Shown here in pieces: positions 30,888 through 44,378 of a stretch of 64,000 bases of DNA. A model generated the notes under the pieces. The model saw only the letters and a list, made by a program, of their open reading frames with translations. It was not told the DNA's origin and ran no database searches. The stretch lies in contig JAUSAB010000048.1 of assembly GCA_030653035.1 (NCBI GenBank), positions 1 to 64,000 of the forward strand, in the 5' to 3' direction. The stretch is from Desulfocapsaceae bacterium (GTDB lineage Bacteria > Desulfobacterota > Desulfobulbia > Desulfobulbales > Desulfocapsaceae). Position 1 is the stretch's first letter. Each line of letters starts with the position of its first letter. The translations under genes and the position numbers were made by a program.

Positions 30888-32516
30888 TTATAGGTCGGCC
30901 ACGGAGAACCGCTCGCGCATCTTATTACGCAGATGGATTGCCGTGCTCGTCATGATGAGTACGATCAGAATCAACAACAAGGTGGTGACATAGACCATGG
31001 GCTTTGCCGCCTCGACATTGGGGGATTGGAAACCGATGTCGTAGATATGAAAGCCGAGGTGCATAAACTTGCGATCCAGGTGCAGATAGGGAAAGCTGCC
31101 ATCAAGCGGCAGAGCCGGCGCAAGCTTGACCACACCGGTGATCATCAGCGGCGCCACTTCGCCTGCGGCCCGGGCCATGGCCAGGATAAACCCGGTCAGG
31201 ATCCCAGGGGAAGCCATAGGCAACAGGATCCTGGTCAGGGTCTGAAACTTGGTGGCGGCCAGGGCCTGAGATCCTTCCCGGATACCAGGGGGGATCGCCC
31301 CCAGGGCCTCTTCAGTGGCGACAATGACCACCGGCACGGTCAGAAGCCCCAGGGTCAGACTGGCCCAGAGAATCCCGCCCGTGCCAAAGGTGGGAGTCGG
31401 TAACATTTCCGGGAAAAAAAGCTGATCGATCTGACCGCCGACACCATACACAAAAAAGCCCAGACCAAAAATACCGTAAACAATGGAAGGGATACCCGCC
31501 AGATTATTAACGGCAATACGCACCATTTTGACCAGATAGCCGTCTTTTGCATATTCACGCAGATAAATCCCGGCAATGACCCCGACTGGAAAAGAGAGGA
31601 TGCTCATCAATAAAATCAGCATAATCGTGCCGAAGATCGCCGGGAACAACCCTCCTTCGGTATTGGATTCCCGCGGCTCAGCAAAGAGCAGCTCTCCCAG
31701 TCGTTTTCCATAATAGCTGCATTTTTGCAGCCATGACATGGAATTGGGTTGATAACAGCGGACGATATTGGCCAGGGCAATGATTTTTTCCTGGCCGCCC
31801 GCATCCACCATCACGGCCACATTGGCCGAGACGATTGCTCGTTTGCTGCCAAGAAGCACAACCAACCGGTCAAACTCGGCCTTGATATTTTTTTCCTCCT
31901 CCTGTAAGGCCGCGGCCACAGGGGTATTCTCTTCCTTATGATACCGCAACCGGGCAAGCTTGTTATTGCTCTGTTCCACCTGGCGATTGAGGGTGGCAAT
32001 CTGCCTGTCAATCTCTGCAACCTCGGCTTGCTGCGGCAGGATGGCATCAAGGGCTGCCTGCAGGCTCTTTTTTTTATCTGCGGGTAAAATCAGACCAGGG
32101 ATTTTCAATTCCTTCAAGGAACCGTAAAAATTACCATGCTCCTGCCGTTCCAAAACATAAATCTCCGGCGGCAGGCTGAAGTTACTGACACTCGCCTCAT
32201 CGACCCACTTGAAATCAAGACCATAGAGATCGCGGTTGCCGATCTTGAACTGCACCCTTTTTTTCCCGGTAGCCGGATTTTCTTCTTCCTGGATCACTTC
32301 ACCAAGCAGATGGCCGCCATCGGTCAAGGTTGCCAAGGTCACTTTCTTGGGCCAAAAAACCATGACCCCATTGGCTAGGACCACATAAAAGAGGAGAAAA
32401 GTCATAAAAAGGATAAGTGAGAGCGCAAGACTCGTGGCCCACACAAAGGGTTCTCCCTGCCGCCAGAATTTTTTTGTCACCATCATTTTTCCTTTATCTC
32501 CTTTAATAGCGGCCAT
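30888..32516 (-). CDS. pstA: phosphate ABC transporter permease PstA, long form
   Basis: 542 residues, nearly twice the roughly 290-residue E. coli protein. One membrane helix (about 24-50) is followed by an inserted soluble region (about 55-270) with a coiled-coil stretch (AEVDRQIATLNRQVEQSNNK-like, about 140-185). The standard permease core (about 285-535) includes the EAA loop REGSQALAATKFQTLTRILL. The long form occurs in several Gram-negative lineages together with a long PstC, as here. The start overlaps the pstC end by 14 bases. Confidence 0.9.
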   Translation of the reverse strand: MAAIKGDKGKMMVTKKFWRQGEPFVWATSLALSLILFMTFLLFYVVLANGVMVFWPKKVTLATLTDGGHLLGEVIQEEENPATGKKRVQFKIGNRDLYGLDFKWVDEASVSNFSLPPEIYVLERQEHGNFYGSLKELKIPGLILPADKKKSLQAALDAILPQQAEVAEIDRQIATLNRQVEQSNNKLARLRYHKEENTPVAAALQEEEKNIKAEFDRLVVLLGSKRAIVSANVAVMVDAGGQEKIIALANIVRCYQPNSMSWLQKCSYYGKRLGELLFAEPRESNTEGGLFPAIFGTIMLILLMSILSFPVGVIAGIYLREYAKDGYLVKMVRIAVNNLAGIPSIVYGIFGLGFFVYGVGGQIDQLFFPEMLPTPTFGTGGILWASLTLGLLTVPVVIVATEEALGAIPPGIREGSQALAATKFQTLTRILLPMASPGILTGFILAMARAAGEVAPLMITGVVKLAPALPLDGSFPYLHLDRKFMHLGFHIYDIGFQSPNVEAAKPMVYVTTLLLILIVLIMTSTAIHLRNKMRERFSVADL

Positions 32517-34737
32517 ATTTTTTTCGCAACCGCTCTCGTATCACTTCCGCTCCGGTATTGAGAATAAAAGTCAGGGCAAACAGAAGCGTGGCACAAAGAA
32601 AAAGCACCCGATACAAGGTTCCATTAAAAGGCGCCTCCGGGATCTCCACCGCAATGTTAGCAGACAAAGTTCGCATCCCGTTAAAGAGTGACCAGTCCAT
32701 GATGGGGGTATTGCCGGTGGCCATGAGGACAATCATGGTCTCCCCCACTGCCCGGCCAAAACCGATCATGATGGCGGCAAAGATTCCGGGACTGGCCGAG
32801 GGCAGCACTACCCGCCAGATGGTCTGCCAGCGGCTGGCGCCAAGGGCCAGAGAGGCTGCCGTCAGACTGGAGGGGATATTAGAGATGGCATCTTCGGTAA
32901 TAGAAAAAATAATGGGGATGATGGCAATACCGAGGCCAAAGGCAATGATAATACTGTTACGCTGATCATAGCGAACGCCAAGATCACTATAGAGCCATTG
33001 CAGAAAATTGCCGCCAAAAAGCAACCGTTCCACTCCCGGGGCCAGCCATAGCGACAAGGCGGCCGTCAAGAGAATGACCGGCACCAGCAACAGAAATTCA
33101 TAACCATTACAACGGTTTTGCAGGGTGGGGGTTCTGTAGTATGGCTGCATGAGCAGCATCATACTAACCAGAACCAGGGGGAGAAGCAGGCAAAAGCAGA
33201 TAATTGCCAGGATTGACTTTTCAACAAGGGGCCCCAGCCACAAGGCAATAAGAAAGCCTATGACCACCGAGGGCACCGAGGCCATAATCTCAATCAACGG
33301 TTTGATATTTTTCTTGAAGGTATAGCTGGTAAACTGGCTGGTATAAACGGCACCAAAAAGGGAAAGCGGAATCGCAAAAATCATGGCATACAAGGTGCCT
33401 TTAATGGTGCCGAACAGGAGAGGCACCAGACTGAATTTTGCCTCAAAGTCATCGTTGCCGGCAGAGGATTGCCAGACATACTCCGGTTTATCATAACTTT
33501 CATACCGCACCTTGCCAAAAAGGGTCTTCACACTCACCTCCGGATGCGGATTATCAACATTCCAGACAATAAGTTTTTTGTTCCGGTCAAGGCCTATCAG
33601 GCTGTTATCACTCCCGGAAATGGCAAAACTTGTCAAGTGCTGCTCAATATCAAGCAGGTGATTTTCACTGGACATATGGTCATAATGGACCCTGCCGTCA
33701 GCATCAAAGCTGACAATCGTTTTAGTGCGGCGCGAGGCGACAATAGTTACAACAGCAGCCGTATGCGGGACAAGCTGATGAATTTTGCGAAGTTTTTTTA
33801 CCTTCCCCGCCCCTTCTCCGCTCCAGACCAGACTCCAGGTAGCAAGGCCACCTTTGACATCACCAACCGCTACCGACATATCACCAAAGACCATGGTCAA
33901 GGCACTGATAGCCTGTTTGTCCGCGGTCGCCACCACATTATCGGTGAGGCTGGCCCCATCACTTTGACTTACATCCCAACGCAACAGACTCCCGGAATCT
34001 GTGCCGGCAAAAAGGGTGTCCCCCTTTTCATCAAGGGTAAAGGCCATAATCTTCCCAGGAGGATCATGCTGAACAGGAAAAGAAAAATCCTCTTTTTTCT
34101 CATTGCCAAAGAGATCAGTCGTGGTCACCTGCTGCGTTACCTGAAAACTGTTGTCATCAAGAAGCACTACCTTGGTCAGACGACCATCTTCGGTCTTGCG
34201 GATAGCGGCATGCAAGACTTTGGCCGTTGCCACTCCTGTCTCTGGCGGAAATTCAGCAAGAGTCTGGATCTCAGGTTTGACAGTACGCTTTCCTTCTTTG
34301 TCAAAAAGAAACCGGAACGAAACCTCGGTCATGCTGGTACTCTTATCCGCCCACAGCAGAGTGTACTGATTATTTTTATGCAACTCGATGGATTGCAGCG
34401 GAACTTTCTTGTCAGCAACAGCCGCCAAACTCAAAAAGGATGCGCCCTTGGCCAGGTTATAAAAGATAAAGACACCCCGATCATTCAAGGTATAGGCGAT
34501 CTCCTGATAATCATCAACCCCCATGGCCAGCAACGCTTCTGGTGGGGAAGAGAGCGGAAACTGAAAGACAATATTGGTCCGGGCCGACTGAAAAAGAGGA
34601 ATAGTCACGCGGACGATCAGGACCAGAATAGCAATCACACTGGCAATAACCAGCAGCCCGCCCAAAGTAATAATCCGGGTGGCAATACGATCCTGAAGGC
34701 GGACTTTTTTTATGAACTGTTTATCAAGTTTTTGCAT
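32503..34737 (-). CDS. pstC: phosphate ABC transporter permease PstC, long form with WD-like insert
   Basis: 744 residues against about 320 in E. coli. After a first membrane helix (about 25-50) comes a long periplasm-facing insert (about 55-400) of repeated strands ending in Trp/Asp-type motifs (LLRWDVSQ, GLATWSL, LIVWNVDN) that look like beta-propeller blades. The permease core (about 430-740) has the EAA loop ASLALGASRWQTIWRVVLPS. It pairs with the long PstA. A repeat-family palindrome lies between pstS and this gene. Confidence 0.9.
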   Translation of the reverse strand: MQKLDKQFIKKVRLQDRIATRIITLGGLLVIASVIAILVLIVRVTIPLFQSARTNIVFQFPLSSPPEALLAMGVDDYQEIAYTLNDRGVFIFYNLAKGASFLSLAAVADKKVPLQSIELHKNNQYTLLWADKSTSMTEVSFRFLFDKEGKRTVKPEIQTLAEFPPETGVATAKVLHAAIRKTEDGRLTKVVLLDDNSFQVTQQVTTTDLFGNEKKEDFSFPVQHDPPGKIMAFTLDEKGDTLFAGTDSGSLLRWDVSQSDGASLTDNVVATADKQAISALTMVFGDMSVAVGDVKGGLATWSLVWSGEGAGKVKKLRKIHQLVPHTAAVVTIVASRRTKTIVSFDADGRVHYDHMSSENHLLDIEQHLTSFAISGSDNSLIGLDRNKKLIVWNVDNPHPEVSVKTLFGKVRYESYDKPEYVWQSSAGNDDFEAKFSLVPLLFGTIKGTLYAMIFAIPLSLFGAVYTSQFTSYTFKKNIKPLIEIMASVPSVVIGFLIALWLGPLVEKSILAIICFCLLLPLVLVSMMLLMQPYYRTPTLQNRCNGYEFLLLVPVILLTAALSLWLAPGVERLLFGGNFLQWLYSDLGVRYDQRNSIIIAFGLGIAIIPIIFSITEDAISNIPSSLTAASLALGASRWQTIWRVVLPSASPGIFAAIMIGFGRAVGETMIVLMATGNTPIMDWSLFNGMRTLSANIAVEIPEAPFNGTLYRVLFLCATLLFALTFILNTGAEVIRERLRKKYGRY

Positions 34738-37745: not shown

Positions 37746-38065
37746 GGTTTGCCCATAAAAAAACCGCAACACCTGATCCCCTCACCAACCAGCCTTGTCT
37801 GTCCCGCAGACAGGGCTGGCTTCCCTCATGTTCCCCCCTACCTCTTCTCTTCATCTTCAAGACATTCCACGCTGCCCGAGACATTCTCCCCACAACTTTT
37901 CCCCCTTTGTACGGCGCAAAGCCATCCCGGAACTCGCAAAAATCGTAGTGGCAAATTAACCTTCCTTTGAAATTCAAAAGAATATATACTAACAATTGAG
38001 ACGGGTCAGTAAGACAACGGACAGGCAGGACATACTGGCGAAGCAGGCCTTTAGCCATTAACATC
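37746..38065. other. intergenic region before yfiR-like gene
   Basis: 320 bases. No gene was recognised. A possible -10 TATACT lies at 37985-37990 without a good -35. From 38006 on, the sequence is duplicated near 43.0 kb. No T-tailed terminator for the porin gene was seen. Confidence 0.4.
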
Positions 38066-38148
38066 ATGAACAGATACCTCCAAACGCTACTGCTCGTACT
38101 TACTTTGATCCTGCTGAGCAATCAGATGCTCTGGGCAAAAGGACCTGC
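38006..38148 (+). repeat. direct repeat, left copy (yfiR leader and first codons)
   Basis: About 143 bases starting TCAGTAAGACAACGGACAGG and running through the first 27 codons of the yfiR-like gene recur at 43001-43144 with few mismatches and one indel. The copies are about 5 kb apart in the same orientation, flanking the whole yfiR/kinase/TonB-receptor module. Confidence 0.9.
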
Positions 38149-38608
38149 ACTCGACGAATATACGGTCAAGTCCGCACTCCTCTACAATTTTGCCAAATTT
38201 GTGACTTGGCCCCTTGATTCGTTCCCGGCCAACCGTCCATCCCTGGACATCTGCCTCATCGGCGATGCCCCCTTTGGCAGTTCACTTGAGGCAATCTCCA
38301 GCAAAACCATCCACGAAAGGCAATTAACGGTGCAGCGAATCGATAACATCGAAGCGATCTCCAGCTGTCACGTCCTCTTTATTAGCGAATCGGAAACCAA
38401 GCGTCTGAAGCCGATTTTAGAATCGGCTCGCAGGCACCATGTGTTAACCGTCAGCGACATCGAGCATTTCGACCTTTCCGGGGGCATGATCCATCTCTTC
38501 ACAGCAAGTGACAAAATACGTTTCTCGATAAACCAAGACGCTGCGAACCTTGCCGGGCTTGAGATCAGCTCACAGCTTTTAAAACTGTCCTTCACGAACA
38601 ACAAGTAG
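38066..38608 (+). CDS. YfiR-family (DUF4154) periplasmic protein
   Basis: 180 residues. Signal peptide about 1-24 (ending MLWAKG), then the family opening DEYTVKSALLYNFAKFVTWP, a central CLIGDAPFGSSLE, CHVLFIS and a late GGMIHLFTASDKIRFSINQD with ISSQLLKLS at the end. In Pseudomonas YfiR is a periplasmic repressor of the membrane diguanylate cyclase YfiN. Here it is followed after 5 bases by a hybrid kinase with a CHASE8-like sensor instead, then by a TonB-dependent receptor, so it probably gates that kinase. Its start region is duplicated near 43.06 kb. Confidence 0.88.
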   Translation: MNRYLQTLLLVLTLILLSNQMLWAKGPALDEYTVKSALLYNFAKFVTWPLDSFPANRPSLDICLIGDAPFGSSLEAISSKTIHERQLTVQRIDNIEAISSCHVLFISESETKRLKPILESARRHHVLTVSDIEHFDLSGGMIHLFTASDKIRFSINQDAANLAGLEISSQLLKLSFTNNK

Positions 38609-38613
38609 GGCAA

Positions 38614-40695
38614 ATGAGGGGAAAAATGACCAGTCGTTTCAATGACATGCCCATAAAGAACAAGCTCACGATGATGATCATGGGAACTACTACGATAGTA
38701 GTGATCATCGCTTTTCTGGCCTTCTTTGTCTACCAGTTAGACGCGACGTGGCAGGATAATAAAAACAAACTCACTTCTGTTGCAAGAATCACCGGACTCA
38801 ATGTCGCCGCTGCCATTACCTTTCACGAACAACAATCAGCAGCGGACACCCTGGCCGCTCTCAGCGTCGAACCCAGCGTGCTTGCAGCTTTTGTTATTAA
38901 GCCAAACGGCCAGATATTCGCGCAATACCGATCTCTTTCTGGTATGGCAAATAAGCATGTCCAGGAACCATCCCCAAAAATTGATGAGCTGATCGCAGAG
39001 GCATCAACCGAATCTTTTTGGAGCTTTGACAAAGATCTGGAAGCGGTCGAACCAATCATCTTTGATCACCAGCAAATAGGCTTGGTTATTATTCGAAGCC
39101 AGCCCACCAATCTTTTAGCTAAGACACGTTGGTTCATAGAGTTTACCGCCGGCATCCTTGCCCTGATTTTTATCATCATCTATTTTTTGTCCTCGAGGCT
39201 CCAACAGGTCATCTCGGGGCCGATTCTGCATTTGGTCGAGATCATGCGAACCATCTCAGAGCAGAAGAACTATTGCCTTCGCGTCAAAAAAGAAACCAAC
39301 GACGAGGTCGGCACACTCTTTGACGGTTTTAACGAAATGCTGGAGAATATTGAGACGCGAGACAAGCAGTTGGAACTGCACCGGGAAAATCTTGAGCAGC
39401 AGATTGCCTTGCGCACGAATGATCTTTCTGACACCAACCGGAAGCTGGAAGACATGATTGTGGAGCTAAAGCTGGCCAAGGAGACTGCCGAGACGGCAAG
39501 TAAAGCAAAATCGGAATTCCTCTCAAACATGAGTCACGAAATAAGGACACCTCTGCATGCAGTACTTGGCATGACAGAATTGCTTGATCATACCGAATTA
39601 ACCGAAGAGCAGCGTAAACTTCTCACCACCATCCATTCAGCAGGAAAGACACTCATTGGGCTTATCAGCAACATCCTTGATTTTTCAAAAATAGAAGCCG
39701 GCAAGATGGTGTTGGATTATGTTGCTATTGATCTGTTGAGTACCTTCAATGAAACAATCGCCCCCATCGTGCAGATGGCAGAACAGAAAGGACTGAAAGT
39801 TGAAATCTGCATTGAAGGTACCGATGGTCTCCTTGTCCTTGTGGATCCAACTCGCCTCAAACAGATTCTCACCAATCTGATCTATAACGCTGTTAAGTTC
39901 ACGGTACAGGGTAAGATCTCCGTTCACTCCTCGCTCCGCAGACAGAGCGACAATAACGCCGATCTGTTGATTGAGGTCACTGATACCGGCATCGGGATAT
40001 CCACAGATGCTAAGGCCACAATTTTTGATAGTTTCACTCAGGAAGATGGCTCCACGACCAGAAAATATGGGGGGACAGGACTCGGCTTGGCGATAACGAA
40101 AAAATTAGTCTCCTTGATGGGCGGCGAAATAAGTATTGAAAGTGAGCTTGGCAAGGGATCGACCTTCCTAGTCATCATTCCGTGCCAGACACAGAATAAG
40201 CCCTTGACGGTGGAGGCCACGCCGGACTGTGCCGCCGACAGAAAAGAGATTAAGGGCACCAGCATCCTGGTTGTTGAAGACAATGCCGACAATCAGAATG
40301 TGGTCAGACAAATGCTCGAAATGTTTGGATTCCGGGTAGATATCGCCGGAAACGGCCTCCAAGCTTGCGAGATGACTGCTCATGCCACGTATGACCTCAT
40401 TTTGATGGATTGCCAGATGCCGGTGATGGATGGATTCGAAGCAACCCGATCCATCCGAGAACGGGAACGTTTGACCGGTGCACACACAAACATTGTTGCC
40501 CTGACCGGAAATGTAGTAACAAAAGATCTGGAGCAGTGCCTGATCGCCGGCATGGATGACTATCTGGGTAAACCATTTTCCTTACAAGAGATACACACAA
40601 TGGCGATGAAGTGGCTGCCCGCCCAGGATGGAACGGCCGACCGCAATGATGATAACAGGGACGAAGCATGGCAGGGTTCGGCAGAGGTGACATGA
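38614..40695 (+). CDS. hybrid histidine kinase (CHASE8-like sensor, HAMP, HisKA, HATPase, REC)
   Basis: 693 residues. First membrane helix about 19-41, a periplasmic CHASE8-like sensor (about 42-170; ITGLNVAAAITFHEQQSAADT is typical), second helix about 172-194, HAMP (about 195-247), a coiled coil, HisKA with H-box NMSHEIRTPLHAVLG, HATPase with GTGLGLAITKKLVSLMGG, and a C-terminal receiver (about 550-668) with ILVVEDNADN and phospho-acceptor Asp in LILMDCQMPVMDG. No output domain or HPt is attached. A start at 38626 (MTSRFND) behind GAGGGG is equally likely. It is coupled to yfiR and precedes the TonB receptor. Confidence 0.9.
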   Translation: MRGKMTSRFNDMPIKNKLTMMIMGTTTIVVIIAFLAFFVYQLDATWQDNKNKLTSVARITGLNVAAAITFHEQQSAADTLAALSVEPSVLAAFVIKPNGQIFAQYRSLSGMANKHVQEPSPKIDELIAEASTESFWSFDKDLEAVEPIIFDHQQIGLVIIRSQPTNLLAKTRWFIEFTAGILALIFIIIYFLSSRLQQVISGPILHLVEIMRTISEQKNYCLRVKKETNDEVGTLFDGFNEMLENIETRDKQLELHRENLEQQIALRTNDLSDTNRKLEDMIVELKLAKETAETASKAKSEFLSNMSHEIRTPLHAVLGMTELLDHTELTEEQRKLLTTIHSAGKTLIGLISNILDFSKIEAGKMVLDYVAIDLLSTFNETIAPIVQMAEQKGLKVEICIEGTDGLLVLVDPTRLKQILTNLIYNAVKFTVQGKISVHSSLRRQSDNNADLLIEVTDTGIGISTDAKATIFDSFTQEDGSTTRKYGGTGLGLAITKKLVSLMGGEISIESELGKGSTFLVIIPCQTQNKPLTVEATPDCAADRKEIKGTSILVVEDNADNQNVVRQMLEMFGFRVDIAGNGLQACEMTAHATYDLILMDCQMPVMDGFEATRSIRERERLTGAHTNIVALTGNVVTKDLEQCLIAGMDDYLGKPFSLQEIHTMAMKWLPAQDGTADRNDDNRDEAWQGSAEVT

Positions 40696-40796
40696 AAAGC
40701 TGGGATATATTTCCCCTTCTTTCTCAAACGGCAGGAATAATTTTTCCAGATAGTTTTATGCAATTCCTTAACCAGACAACACTGTAGGTTTACTCA

Positions 40797-42905
40797 ATGC
40801 AAAGAAGATATCTTAATTCTCAACAACCCAATATAAAGAACGGGTGCATTGGAGTTATAAAATGCAACTCAATGAGTTTCGGTGGATTAATTGTGGCCAT
40901 TCTCTTTGCGGCCATGTGCTTCCATGCCTCGATCGCGCACTCGGAAGAACAGCTTGACCTAACCGAACTGCCAATAGAAAGTCTCTTAAATATACACGTT
41001 TACAGCGCGTCAAAATTCATCCAGAAAAAATCCGATGCGCCAACGGCGGTAACTGTTATAACGGCGCAAGACATTAAGGATTACGGGTATCGCACTCTGG
41101 CCGCGATTATCCAGAGTGTTCGCGGCGTTTATGTCGATAGTGACCGCAATTACAGTATGGCAGGCATGCGCGGCTTTAATATTCCTGGCGATATAAATAC
41201 CCGGGTTCTGGTGTTGTTGGACGGTTATCGCCTCAATGACGCGACCTATGACCAAGGGCCATTGGGCACTGAATTTCCAGTCGATGTGGATTTGATTGAG
41301 CGTGTGGAATATGTGCCCGGCGCCGGTTCTGCGATATACGGCAATAATGCCTTTTTGGGTGTGATTAACGTCTTCACCAAATCAGGTAAGGATTTCAAAG
41401 GCAAGGGAGCAGAAATATCTGGAGAGATTGCCAGTTACGGTACCGATCAGGAACGGGTAAGCTTTGGCAAGTATTTCGACAATGGCGTGGAAATGCTGGT
41501 TTCCGCAACCCGCCATGACAGCAATGGTGAAAACGGTCTGTTTTTTCCAGAGTTTAATACCCTGGAAAGCAATAACGGCATCACCAGCCATGGGAACTTT
41601 GACAACGCCGAGCGCTTGTTCGGCAAGTTTTCATGGCAGCACTTCACCTTAGAGACCGGTTACTCAAAACGCAATAAAGGCCTTCCCTTGGCTAATTATG
41701 GGACAGTTTTTAACGACCCTCGCAACCAAAATACGGATCAGCATATCTTTGGGAATCTCACTTACAACAACTTGATTGCCAATCATCTTGAATTGTATGC
41801 ACGGGCTTATCATGGCCGTTATGATTATCCAGGAACCTGGGTATATGATGATCCACCCATTACCCTTTATAAAGAGTTAGGGCTTGGACGATGGTGGGGT
41901 TCAGAAGCACGCCTGGTCAGCACGCATATTGATGGCCATAAATTGATGATTGGAGGCGAGTTTCAGGATAATTATCTCTTGTCGGATGAGCAGCTCATGG
42001 CTGTAAACCCGGATAATCCCAGTGCCGCGGCAGGTTTCAAGCACTCGACCAATAGCTCTGGACTTTATCTTCAGGATGAGATGACACTTCGCGACAATCT
42101 AATCCTGAATGCCGGGTTGCGTTACGATCACCTGAGTTATGGTGTTAATGCCATTAACCCCCGAATGGCGCTGATTTACAAGCCTTGGGACGATACTGCC
42201 TTCAAGCTTTTATACGGTTCCTCTTTTAGGGCTCCTAATGCTAACGAACTTTATTATACTGACCCCATTACCATAGCCAGTAACAATCTCATCCCTGAAA
42301 AAATCAAAACCTATGAAGCTCTTATAGAATATCAGCCAGGCCGCACAGTGCGATTGACTGCCGGGGGGTTCCAGTATGAAATAACAAATCTTATTGAACT
42401 TACGGCGATTCCCAGCCCAAACCCTGGAGAAGATACTGTAAACCAATTTATTAATGCCGGTACAGATAATAAGGCCTGGGGCACGGAATTGGAAGTTGAA
42501 AAACTGTGGGATTATGGTTCGCGGCTTCGAGCCAGTTATATCTGGATCAAAACCGATGAAGCCAGTAGTAACCAACAGTTGATTAATTCGCCCAGCAACC
42601 TCTTTAAATTGAATTTTTCAACACCTTTATTAGAACACTGGCTACGTGCCGGCATTGAAGCGCAATACACCGACAGCCGGAAAGGGCGAGACGACACCAA
42701 GAGCGAAGGTTATCCGTTATTCAACCTGACCTTGACCAGTGGCGATAAACTCTTTAAAGGATCACTTAGCGGCGTGGAAATCTCCGGTAGCATTTACAAC
42801 CTTCTTGATCAGCAATATACCAGTGTGGCCAGTGATGAATTTATTCAGCATTTTATCCCGCAAAACGGTCGGAATTTCCGACTGGTATTCTCATACCGAT
42901 TTTAA
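40797..42905 (+). CDS. TonB-dependent outer-membrane receptor
   Basis: 702 residues. A signal-like segment (about 28-50, GGLIVAILFAAMCFHASIAHS) is followed by a TonB-box/plug domain (about 70-190: APTAVTVITAQDIKDYGYRT, SVRGVYVDSDRNYS, MRGFNIPGDINTRVLVLLDG, VEYVPGAGSAIYGNNAFLGV). A 22-strand barrel follows, ending NFRLVFSYRF with the terminal Phe. An N-terminal start at MSFGG (codon 26) is also possible. The substrate is unknown; plug and barrel style match siderophore/cobalamin-type receptors. Its place after yfiR and the kinase suggests that ligand binding or import is tied to the signalling pair. Confidence 0.9.
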   Translation: MQRRYLNSQQPNIKNGCIGVIKCNSMSFGGLIVAILFAAMCFHASIAHSEEQLDLTELPIESLLNIHVYSASKFIQKKSDAPTAVTVITAQDIKDYGYRTLAAIIQSVRGVYVDSDRNYSMAGMRGFNIPGDINTRVLVLLDGYRLNDATYDQGPLGTEFPVDVDLIERVEYVPGAGSAIYGNNAFLGVINVFTKSGKDFKGKGAEISGEIASYGTDQERVSFGKYFDNGVEMLVSATRHDSNGENGLFFPEFNTLESNNGITSHGNFDNAERLFGKFSWQHFTLETGYSKRNKGLPLANYGTVFNDPRNQNTDQHIFGNLTYNNLIANHLELYARAYHGRYDYPGTWVYDDPPITLYKELGLGRWWGSEARLVSTHIDGHKLMIGGEFQDNYLLSDEQLMAVNPDNPSAAAGFKHSTNSSGLYLQDEMTLRDNLILNAGLRYDHLSYGVNAINPRMALIYKPWDDTAFKLLYGSSFRAPNANELYYTDPITIASNNLIPEKIKTYEALIEYQPGRTVRLTAGGFQYEITNLIELTAIPSPNPGEDTVNQFINAGTDNKAWGTELEVEKLWDYGSRLRASYIWIKTDEASSNQQLINSPSNLFKLNFSTPLLEHWLRAGIEAQYTDSRKGRDDTKSEGYPLFNLTLTSGDKLFKGSLSGVEISGSIYNLLDQQYTSVASDEFIQHFIPQNGRNFRLVFSYRF

Positions 42906-43000: not shown

Positions 43001-43166
43001 TCAGTAAGACAACGGACAGGCGGAACATACCGGGCGAAGCGGGAATTTAGCCATTAACATCATGAACAGATACCTCCAAACGCTACTGCTCGTACTTACT
43101 TTGATCCTGCTGAGCAATCAGATGCTCTGGGCAAAAGAACCTGCTGGACGGCGGTCATGCTGAGTT
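43001..43166 (+). pseudogene. duplicate yfiR start, truncated after about 27 codons
   Basis: 43001-43144 repeats 38006-38148, including the leader and ATG (43062). The frame reads MNRYLQTLLLVLTLILLSNQ like yfiR through AKEPA, then leaves the homology and stops at TGA (43164-43166). The signal peptide is therefore intact but the protein body is missing. Confidence 0.85.
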
Positions 43167-43239
43167 TGTTCAGGAAACATTCACTCGTCCCACTGAAGTT
43201 AGTCGCAATGTGTACGGTAAACTGACCTATAAATTTTAA
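43144..43239 (+). pseudogene. C-terminal remnant of a second TonB-dependent receptor
   Basis: In a frame different from the preceding yfiR fragment, 31 codons read LDGGHAEFVQETFTRPTEVS then RNVYGKLTYKF and a TAA stop. This is a typical last barrel strand with terminal Phe. It is joined directly to the yfiR start fragment, so the middle of a second module is deleted. It differs in sequence from the intact receptor's end (NFRLVFSYRF). Confidence 0.75.
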
Positions 43240-43254
43240 GACGGGGCCGTATCT

Positions 43255-43463
43255 GTGTTTAAACAAACAATACAGGACAACTGTGCTTTGGTAATTTCTC
43301 TTTGCCTCTGGTGACTGGGAAGCTGTCTGTTGCTGCCCGAAAAAATATTTGCCAGAGAAGGGGAGGAGTATGCGGTGAAGGCCGCATTTGTCCTCAATTT
43401 TTCAAAGTACCCTAAACGTTTCAAGCAACCCGTGATTCTTGACACACCAAAAGAAGGCAACAA
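43255..43463 (+). pseudogene. frameshifted remnant of another yfiR-like gene
   Basis: A GTG-initiated signal-like peptide (FKQTIQDNCALVISLCLW) stops at TGA. In another frame the text continues LGSCLLLPEKIFAREGEEYA, then VKAAFVLNFSKYPKRF, which matches the YfiR opening EYTVKSALLYNFAKF of the intact gene. The homology ends just before the ZnuA-like gene at 43464. It points to at least one more yfiR/kinase/receptor module in the past. Confidence 0.7.
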
Positions 43464-44378
43464 ATGCATAAAAAAATAGTAATGGCTTCAATAGTGCTCT
43501 CATTCTTATGGTTCACCACAATGGTCCTTGCGGCCCCTCCTCTACCTCTGAAGGTCTTTGTCTCTGTCCCCCCGCAAAAATGGGTCAGTGACAATATAGG
43601 TGGAGCCCTCGTGACCACTGAGGTCCTGGTCGACAAAGGGCAGGATCCTCACACCTATGAACCTACGCCAAAACAGCTGACAACCCTTTCCCAGGCAAAA
43701 CTCTACTTCACCCTTGATCTCGAATTTGAAAAACAAATCATTCCCAAGCTGGGACAAACAGTTCCCACCCTGAGCATAGTCGATACGGCGGACTCCATTC
43801 CCAAGATCGCCATGTCCGAACATGAACATGATGAGCCCAAGTCGAGCAACGAAGCTCATTCCAACAAGGAACACCAGCACCAAGAAGGTCTTGACCCCCA
43901 TGTCTGGCTCTCTCCCCTGAACCTGAAGATCATGGCTGCGGATATGGCCAGGGCCATGATTGCAAGCGATCCGGCAAATAAAGTAACCTATGAAAAGAAT
44001 CTGCTGGAAACAACCAGAATCCTGGATCAGGTGCATCAAAAGATCGAACAAAAGCTGGCCCCTTATCAAGGCGCATCCTTTTATGTCTTTCACCCGGCCT
44101 TCGGCTACTTTGCCCATACCTATCACCTGCAGCAACAGGCCATTGAAACCGGCGGCAAATCGCCAACCCCCAGACAACTCTCTTCCCTGATTACTCAAGC
44201 CAAAGCGAGTAAGGCACGGGTGATTTTTGTCCAACCCCAGTTTGACCCCAGAAGTGCGCAGGCCATAGCCAATGCCATTCATGGTGAAGTCGTGCCTCTT
44301 GACCCGCTGGCCGAGGATGTGGCAGCCAACCTGGAGACCATGGCCTCAAAGATTCAAGCGGCATTTATTGCCAGATAA
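43464..44378 (+). CDS. ZnuA-like metal ABC transporter substrate-binding protein
   Basis: 304 residues. Signal peptide about 1-23 (MVLAAPP). Cluster 9 (A-I) binding-protein features: VSVPPQKWVSDNIGG, GQDPHTYEPTPKQL (first His ligand), an acidic/His-rich loop about 115-145 (SEHEHDEPK ... NKEHQHQEG), DPHVWLSPLN (second His), and YVFHPAFGYFAHTY (third His). This argues for Zn2+ or Mn2+. No permease or ATPase gene (znuB/znuC) lies nearby, so it is an orphan here. It follows the yfiR remnant directly and may have been captured with the rearranged region. Confidence 0.87.
   Translation: MHKKIVMASIVLSFLWFTTMVLAAPPLPLKVFVSVPPQKWVSDNIGGALVTTEVLVDKGQDPHTYEPTPKQLTTLSQAKLYFTLDLEFEKQIIPKLGQTVPTLSIVDTADSIPKIAMSEHEHDEPKSSNEAHSNKEHQHQEGLDPHVWLSPLNLKIMAADMARAMIASDPANKVTYEKNLLETTRILDQVHQKIEQKLAPYQGASFYVFHPAFGYFAHTYHLQQQAIETGGKSPTPRQLSSLITQAKASKARVIFVQPQFDPRSAQAIANAIHGEVVPLDPLAEDVAANLETMASKIQAAFIAR

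Follow-up and report, generated by a model that had tools for sequence, protein, structure and literature searches.

Yfi-type systems and signalling from the outer membrane

In P. aeruginosa, the YfiBNR (TpbB) system consists of a soluble periplasmic DUF4154 repressor (YfiR), a diguanylate cyclase with GGDEF output (YfiN) whose CHASE8-type (PAS-like) domain carries an AAVVF-type motif and is followed by HAMP, and an OmpA-like outer-membrane lipoprotein (YfiB) encoded alongside (PMC3375315, PMC4655355). YfiR binding has been assigned to the AAVVF motif of YfiN by genetics (PMC3375315), and the cysteine pair C71/C110 of YfiR is redox-type (PMC4655355). The YfiR plus PAS/HAMP core also occurs on sensor kinases, including a hybrid kinase in Thauera; homologues from Geobacter and Desulfobacterium have been aligned, and the divergent YfiR-YfiN systems, whose outputs are kinase, HPt or GGDEF-EAL, have been proposed to be modular (Malone et al. 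2012, PMC3375315). TonB receptors are absent from that account, the term 'TonB' having 0 occurrences in the main text of PMC3375315.

The window, a 64,000-nucleotide stretch of DNA from a Desulfocapsaceae bacterium, holds a module with the YfiR-PAS/HAMP-kinase core of these divergent systems. It shares with YfiBNR the soluble repressor, the sensor domain with its motif and HAMP, and an outer-membrane component encoded alongside. This component is a TonB-dependent receptor (TBDR) instead of a lipoprotein, however, and a hybrid histidine kinase takes the place of the cyclase as output. The exchange of cyclase for kinase, noted when the sequence was first read, is already published for YfiN (PMC3375315). 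The same three kinds of neighbour also have names in NCBIfam, given with no mechanism: NF053591 (TOL_0243 YfiR-like), NF053592 (YfiR-associated kinase) and NF053590 (TOL_0244 TBDR). The window proteins score under all three cut-offs (YfiR 124.7 against 125, kinase 165.1 against 194, TBDR 104.1 against 645). No paper joining YfiR and TBDRs as one system was found in the portion of the open-access literature covered. Taken together, the earlier description of divergent systems, the family models and this literature result mark the core as known, the output swap as published and the conserved receptor input as apparently undescribed.

Few signal routes are known from an outer-membrane receptor to the cytoplasm, and the textbook one is cell-surface signalling by FecA, FecR and FecI, in which a TBDR with an STN domain and a membrane-bound FecR lead to a sigma factor as output. 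The window TBDR would likewise be an envelope-crossing signal input, but here there is no STN domain, YfiR is soluble and the output is a kinase.

Gene content and layout of the module

The yfiR-like gene (38066-38608, + strand) encodes a secreted DUF4154 protein of 180 aa, as judged from Pfam, an AlphaFold2 model and alignment to YfiR (4zhu). It is followed by a gene for a 693-aa hybrid histidine kinase (38614-40695, + strand; TM-CHASE8-TM-HAMP-HisKA-HATPase-REC by Pfam, with H308 and D599) and by a 702-aa TBDR gene (40797-42905, + strand), recognised by plug and barrel and by its place in a tree. All three are intact and lie on one strand where they were first placed, and their Pfam domains bear out the sequence-only reading of a YfiR-family gene, a CHASE8 kinase and a TBDR at 38066-42905. 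Likelier starts are the second ATG of the kinase, at 38626, and M27 of the TBDR, at 40875. The gap between yfiR and kinase is 5 bp, against 101 bp from the kinase to the TBDR reading frame or 179 bp to M27, so that the tight order claimed for the trio holds for the first pair and does not extend well to the receptor. Rfam yielded neither a riboswitch nor any other element in the vicinity of the module, and scans for promoters and terminators around it stayed at chance level.

The window YfiR matches DUF4154 at 156.3 bits, against a Pfam curated cut-off of 24.9. Its AlphaFold2 model (pLDDT 92.8) has only YfiR entries among its best 15 PDB matches (TM 0.69-0.80), below which come the substrate-binding proteins 6k1y, 3lkv and 3lft with TM about 0.5-0.6. 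In a profile alignment to 4zhu, C63/C101 align with C71/C110 of the P. aeruginosa protein and F153 with F162. The same alignment gives no counterpart of the P. aeruginosa pair C145/C152, and neither cysteine pair is a requirement of the Pfam DUF4154 family. The RFxIN face is kept as well.

The kinase scores 55 bits for CHASE8 (E-value 1e-14), 76 for HisKA, 99 for HATPase_c and 96 for Response_reg, with HAMP at 24 bits slightly below the cut-off of 25. H308, the N/G boxes for ATP binding and the receiver aspartate are all kept. The receiver (residues 551-663; 40264-40602, + strand; Pfam Response_reg), with phospho-acceptor D599, is followed by 30 residues only, so the protein ends without an output domain and without HPt. 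This agrees with the earlier description of a kinase with periplasmic sensor and receiver and no output domain, and with phosphorelay as its output, HisKA-HATPase-REC standing where YfiN has GGDEF.

The likeness of the periplasmic domain to that of YfiN is equally well founded. The sensor (residues 50-160; 38761-39093, + strand; Pfam, AlphaFold2) is a CHASE8 domain in which NVAAAITF (residues 63-70; 38800-38823, + strand) aligns as the counterpart of the YfiR-binding motif of YfiN (PMC3375315), reading AAITF where YfiN has AAVVF. Of 143 aligned YfiR-linked sensors, 98% retain the Phe of the motif (F70). Sequence comparison with solved structures gave no match for the sensor. Neighbours of its AlphaFold2 model (pLDDT 90.5) are PAS-like extracytoplasmic domains, including the LapD-type periplasmic domain and the extracellular PAS domain of WalK. 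Both of these are domains under the control of partner proteins. Pairwise distances of YfiR and sensor correlate in a mirror-tree comparison with r = 0.557, where shuffling reaches 0.151 at most; shared ancestry adds to this value as to those of the other two pairs below.

Conservation of the trio

Of 38 relatives 13 have DUF4154, as do about half of the congeners that were searched; in a sample of 297 genomes from across the phylum, 48 have it. Loci from the phylum were joined with 80 loci of named genomes, the latter picked by the YfiR pattern N[FI]AK[FY]V[ETK]W and hence biased towards the motif; several loci were common to both sets and duplicates were therefore removed. Profiles built up from the window proteins served to type the reading frames. 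This yielded 156 distinct yfiR genes, 108 of them with at least 3 kb of context on both sides. A TBDR lies within 6 kb of yfiR in 104 of the 108 full-context loci, and in 97 a gene for a CHASE8 protein adjoins yfiR as well. Twenty of these genomes, together about 74 Mb, contain about 90 TBDRs, so that a 10-kb stretch would hold one by chance in about 1.3% of cases. Record titles of the named set include Desulfobacterales, Nitrospirae, Acidobacteria, Verrucomicrobia, Geobacteraceae, Competibacteraceae and Methylococcaceae, among others. The sequence-only reading would have fallen if the trio were confined to close relatives; with its spread over many phyla, that objection does not apply.

The physical order, which had served as an argument for the relay, does not bear that weight. 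The commoner arrangement is TBDR-YfiR-kinase, with the TBDR upstream on the same strand (89/108), and a downstream TBDR as in the window is found in 10 of the 108. An OmpA/YfiB-type motif stands beside yfiR in 1 of 158 loci only, the window having the TBDR there instead, and the only other families recurring beside the trio are generic ABC ATPases. At two loci (L068 and L129) TBDR, YfiR and CHASE8 stay but the output is swapped, the sensor protein being CHASE8-GGDEF(-EAL). L101 (5765-8341) encodes a natural fusion of YfiR, coiled coil, TM, HisKA, HATPase and REC. Elsewhere (L029, 9079-14968) two YfiR genes flank one receptor in the row YfiR-TBDR-YfiR-kinase.

The receptor and its pre-plug segment

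The window TBDR has a Plug domain (71.5 bits, 1e-19) and a beta-barrel (150 bits, 2.5e-43), and Pfam gives no match to an N-terminal STN signalling domain. A tree built from 81 TBDRs contains a branch (support 0.957) that parts 14 of 15 unlinked receptors, all taken from the phylum of the window, from 65 of 66 YfiR-linked ones, with which the window TBDR groups. A separation of the two classes by HMM score was set aside as circular in favour of the tree.

YfiR-linked TBDRs thus form a branch of their own and carry a distinctive pre-plug segment, both new here. The segment faces the periplasm between signal peptide and plug, in a region located by HMM anchor, and has the consensus DLTxLSLExLMxxEVTSVSKxxQKLSxAAAAVF; unlinked TBDRs have at the same place mostly a TonB-box-like stretch, EEVVVTATR. 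In the window it reads DLTELPIESLLNIHVYSASKFIQKKSDAPTAVT (40956-41054, + strand; segment profile). Of 139 linked TBDRs, 128 reach at least 20 bits with the profile; the unlinked set stays at about 15 or less. At a threshold of at least 28 bits the segment is found in 42 of the 297 genomes, 41 of which also have DUF4154 (p = 7.5e-42); 7 of the 48 DUF4154 genomes are without it. In the lone exception (G328), the gene between TBDR and CHASE8 kinase encodes 218 aa that match DUF4154 below threshold, at 18.9 bits. Weak DUF4154 genes in G238, G282 and G190:C54 each also stand in a TBDR-YfiR-kinase row. At L239 (3762-4418), a diverged YfiR-like protein under the Pfam cut-off was traced via a segment-bearing TBDR.

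Beyond the phylum sample, the named loci led to 20 further genomes, most of them from other phyla, with 35 segment-bearing TBDRs between them; 29 of these have a DUF4154 gene within 7 kb. The remaining six belong to two genomes and have no DUF4154 on the available stretch, some of them standing at contig ends. L246 (7096-11459) has tandem segment-bearing TBDRs with no YfiR nearby, one flank, about 7 kb long, being empty; its genome has nine segment-bearing TBDR matches and six DUF4154 matches. Given both counts and the few exceptions, the segment is a strong marker of YfiR-linked receptors. No solved structure matches it. It may be a dock for YfiR and could equally be a special or unusual TonB box. 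YfiR and TBDR co-diverge weakly (r = 0.183, best shuffle 0.138), as do sensor and TBDR (r = 0.168), and the closest relatives of the window TBDR and those of its YfiR and sensor come from different genomes. With co-divergence this low, a specific contact between TBDR and YfiR stays a prediction.

Output partners

For 113 sensor proteins the available sequence extends far enough downstream to show what follows: motifs place REC-GGDEF(-EAL) or HD-GYP genes behind about 15 of them, and stand-alone receivers or further kinases behind others. The cassette of the congeners has a fourth gene, for a REC-PAS-GGDEF-EAL protein of 711 aa; the window cassette has no linked partner regulator. A surviving copy of the congeners' protein elsewhere in the organism's own genome was considered and rejected, the best match being without the REC part. 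The genome has eight HPt matches, one a stand-alone 107-aa protein encoded at G000:C91:7666-7989, and pairing this protein with the window kinase would be a guess. A hand-on to an unlinked HPt or regulator, as had been supposed, is plausible, but in the congeners the partner is a linked fourth gene.

History of the locus

The window cassette is bracketed by a direct repeat (D1/D2, 91-96% identity) whose first copy, at 38006-38148 (+ strand), spans the yfiR leader and the first ~28 codons and whose second, at 43001-43144 (+ strand), lies downstream of the TBDR. Matches to congeners reveal two relics beyond it, the last codons of a lost TBDR from the genus' own cassette (43136-43240, + strand) and the start of a lost yfiR, ~53 codons containing an in-frame stop (43249-43407, + strand). 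Together they form a 272-bp match (43136-43407) that is 81-86% identical to the congeners' cassettes. The window YfiR is about 29-36% identical to that of the congeners, and this divergence, with the relics, shows the window cassette to adjoin the remains of an older one. Repeat and relics (43001-43407) suggest tandem cassettes and a deletion. As far as sequence alone can tell, the window copy could be decaying like its neighbour.

The same genome has another such module, divided between contigs C89 and C53 as YfiR-kinase and REC-kinase-TBDR (L036 13290-15020, L215 1495-6478); it shares about 85-96% identity with the module of genome G006. The yfiR of this second module falls into two reading frames, through a frameshift or an assembly error. 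Directly after the relics follows a gene for a ZnuA-type metal-binding protein (43464-44378). On the other side of the module (32503-34737) lies a gene for a PstC-like permease whose N-terminus is extended by a large region weakly matching beta-propellers, adjoined by a PBP-like (PstS-type) gene.

A possible mechanism and its rivals

The module is probably a three-layer Yfi-type envelope relay, with a TBDR taking the part of YfiB and a phosphorelay that of the diguanylate cyclase; its physical contacts, sign of control, ligand and partner regulator are all ones that we infer. The outer-membrane TBDR would be the input in place of the lipoprotein, soluble periplasmic YfiR the messenger between the membranes, and the CHASE8 domain of the hybrid kinase the docking partner that receives it. 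While the TBDR is idle, YfiR would dock by its conserved C-terminal face (the F153 region) onto the AAITF patch, and docked YfiR would hold the kinase in one state. On ligand binding or transport the pre-plug tail would either gain capture of YfiR or lose its hold of it. This capture or release would flip the kinase, and phosphate would leave via REC to an unlinked HPt or response regulator. The predicted contact faces are the F153 region of YfiR, AAITF of CHASE8 and LPIESLLNIHVYSASK of the TBDR. The conserved trio, the TBDR branch, the co-occurrence of the segment, the YfiR-sensor co-divergence, the conservation of AAVVF-type motif and RFxIN face, the output swaps and the L101 fusion count in favour of this reading. 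The position of the window TBDR, 3' instead of 5' and not close behind the kinase, and the lack of a linked regulator count against, as do the six segment-bearing TBDRs without DUF4154 and the chance that the segment may be a TonB box. The wider proposal, that the pre-plug peptide (LSLEELMxxEVTSVSKK) captures or releases diffusible YfiR and so gates CHASE8 kinases or cyclases as a second widespread class of TonB-receptor signalling, is put forward tentatively and has somewhat less than even prospects. Such a route would be a counterpart of FecA-STN/FecR in which the messenger is soluble and crosses the periplasm.

It is rather unlikely, though worth weighing, that the TBDR is a transporter only, the imported ligand binding YfiR and the ligand state setting the kinase with no need of contact between TBDR and YfiR. 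The resemblance of the YfiR model to 6k1y, 3lkv and 3lft fits this, YfiR being presumably a one-lobe relative of substrate-binding proteins, and so do the weak YfiR-TBDR co-divergence and the swapping of TBDRs between lineages seen in the nearest kin of the window receptor. A segment specific to linked TBDRs would be unexpected in a pure transporter, however, and we know of no ligand for YfiR proteins. Regulation of nutrient receptors by neighbouring genes is frequent. The TBDR could be a nutrient receptor whose expression the two-component system controls, with YfiR reporting the envelope or redox state by itself, a role suited to the cysteine pair C63/C101 with its likeness to C71/C110 (PMC4655355). 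Yet co-encoded regulators are often c-di-GMP enzymes and not DNA-binding, as is the REC-PAS-GGDEF-EAL protein of the congeners, and the TBDR stays even where the sensor output is GGDEF-EAL; a receptor under such control is improbable. Least probable of all is neighbourhood drift, with the window cassette a transient remnant of no present function: the relics directly downstream, the patchy occurrence of DUF4154 in phylum and congeners and the missing linked regulator would suit it, but three intact reading frames with catalytic and interface residues kept would not.

Significance

Interest lies in the receptor link and the pre-plug marker more than in the window copy itself. The short pre-plug peptide is a candidate YfiR binder that is directly testable. 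The trio is real and conserved, probably as a variant of the Yfi-type relay with the mechanism predicted above, and is found in Desulfobacterota, Nitrospirota, Acidobacteriota, Verrucomicrobiota and gamma- and betaproteobacterial genomes. If the relay holds, TBDR-YfiR-kinase would be a second route from an outer-membrane receptor to the cytoplasm, and the YfiR family would have a general role as messenger between the membranes. The conserved trio thus suggests a widespread, little-described way for a surface signal to pass both membranes.
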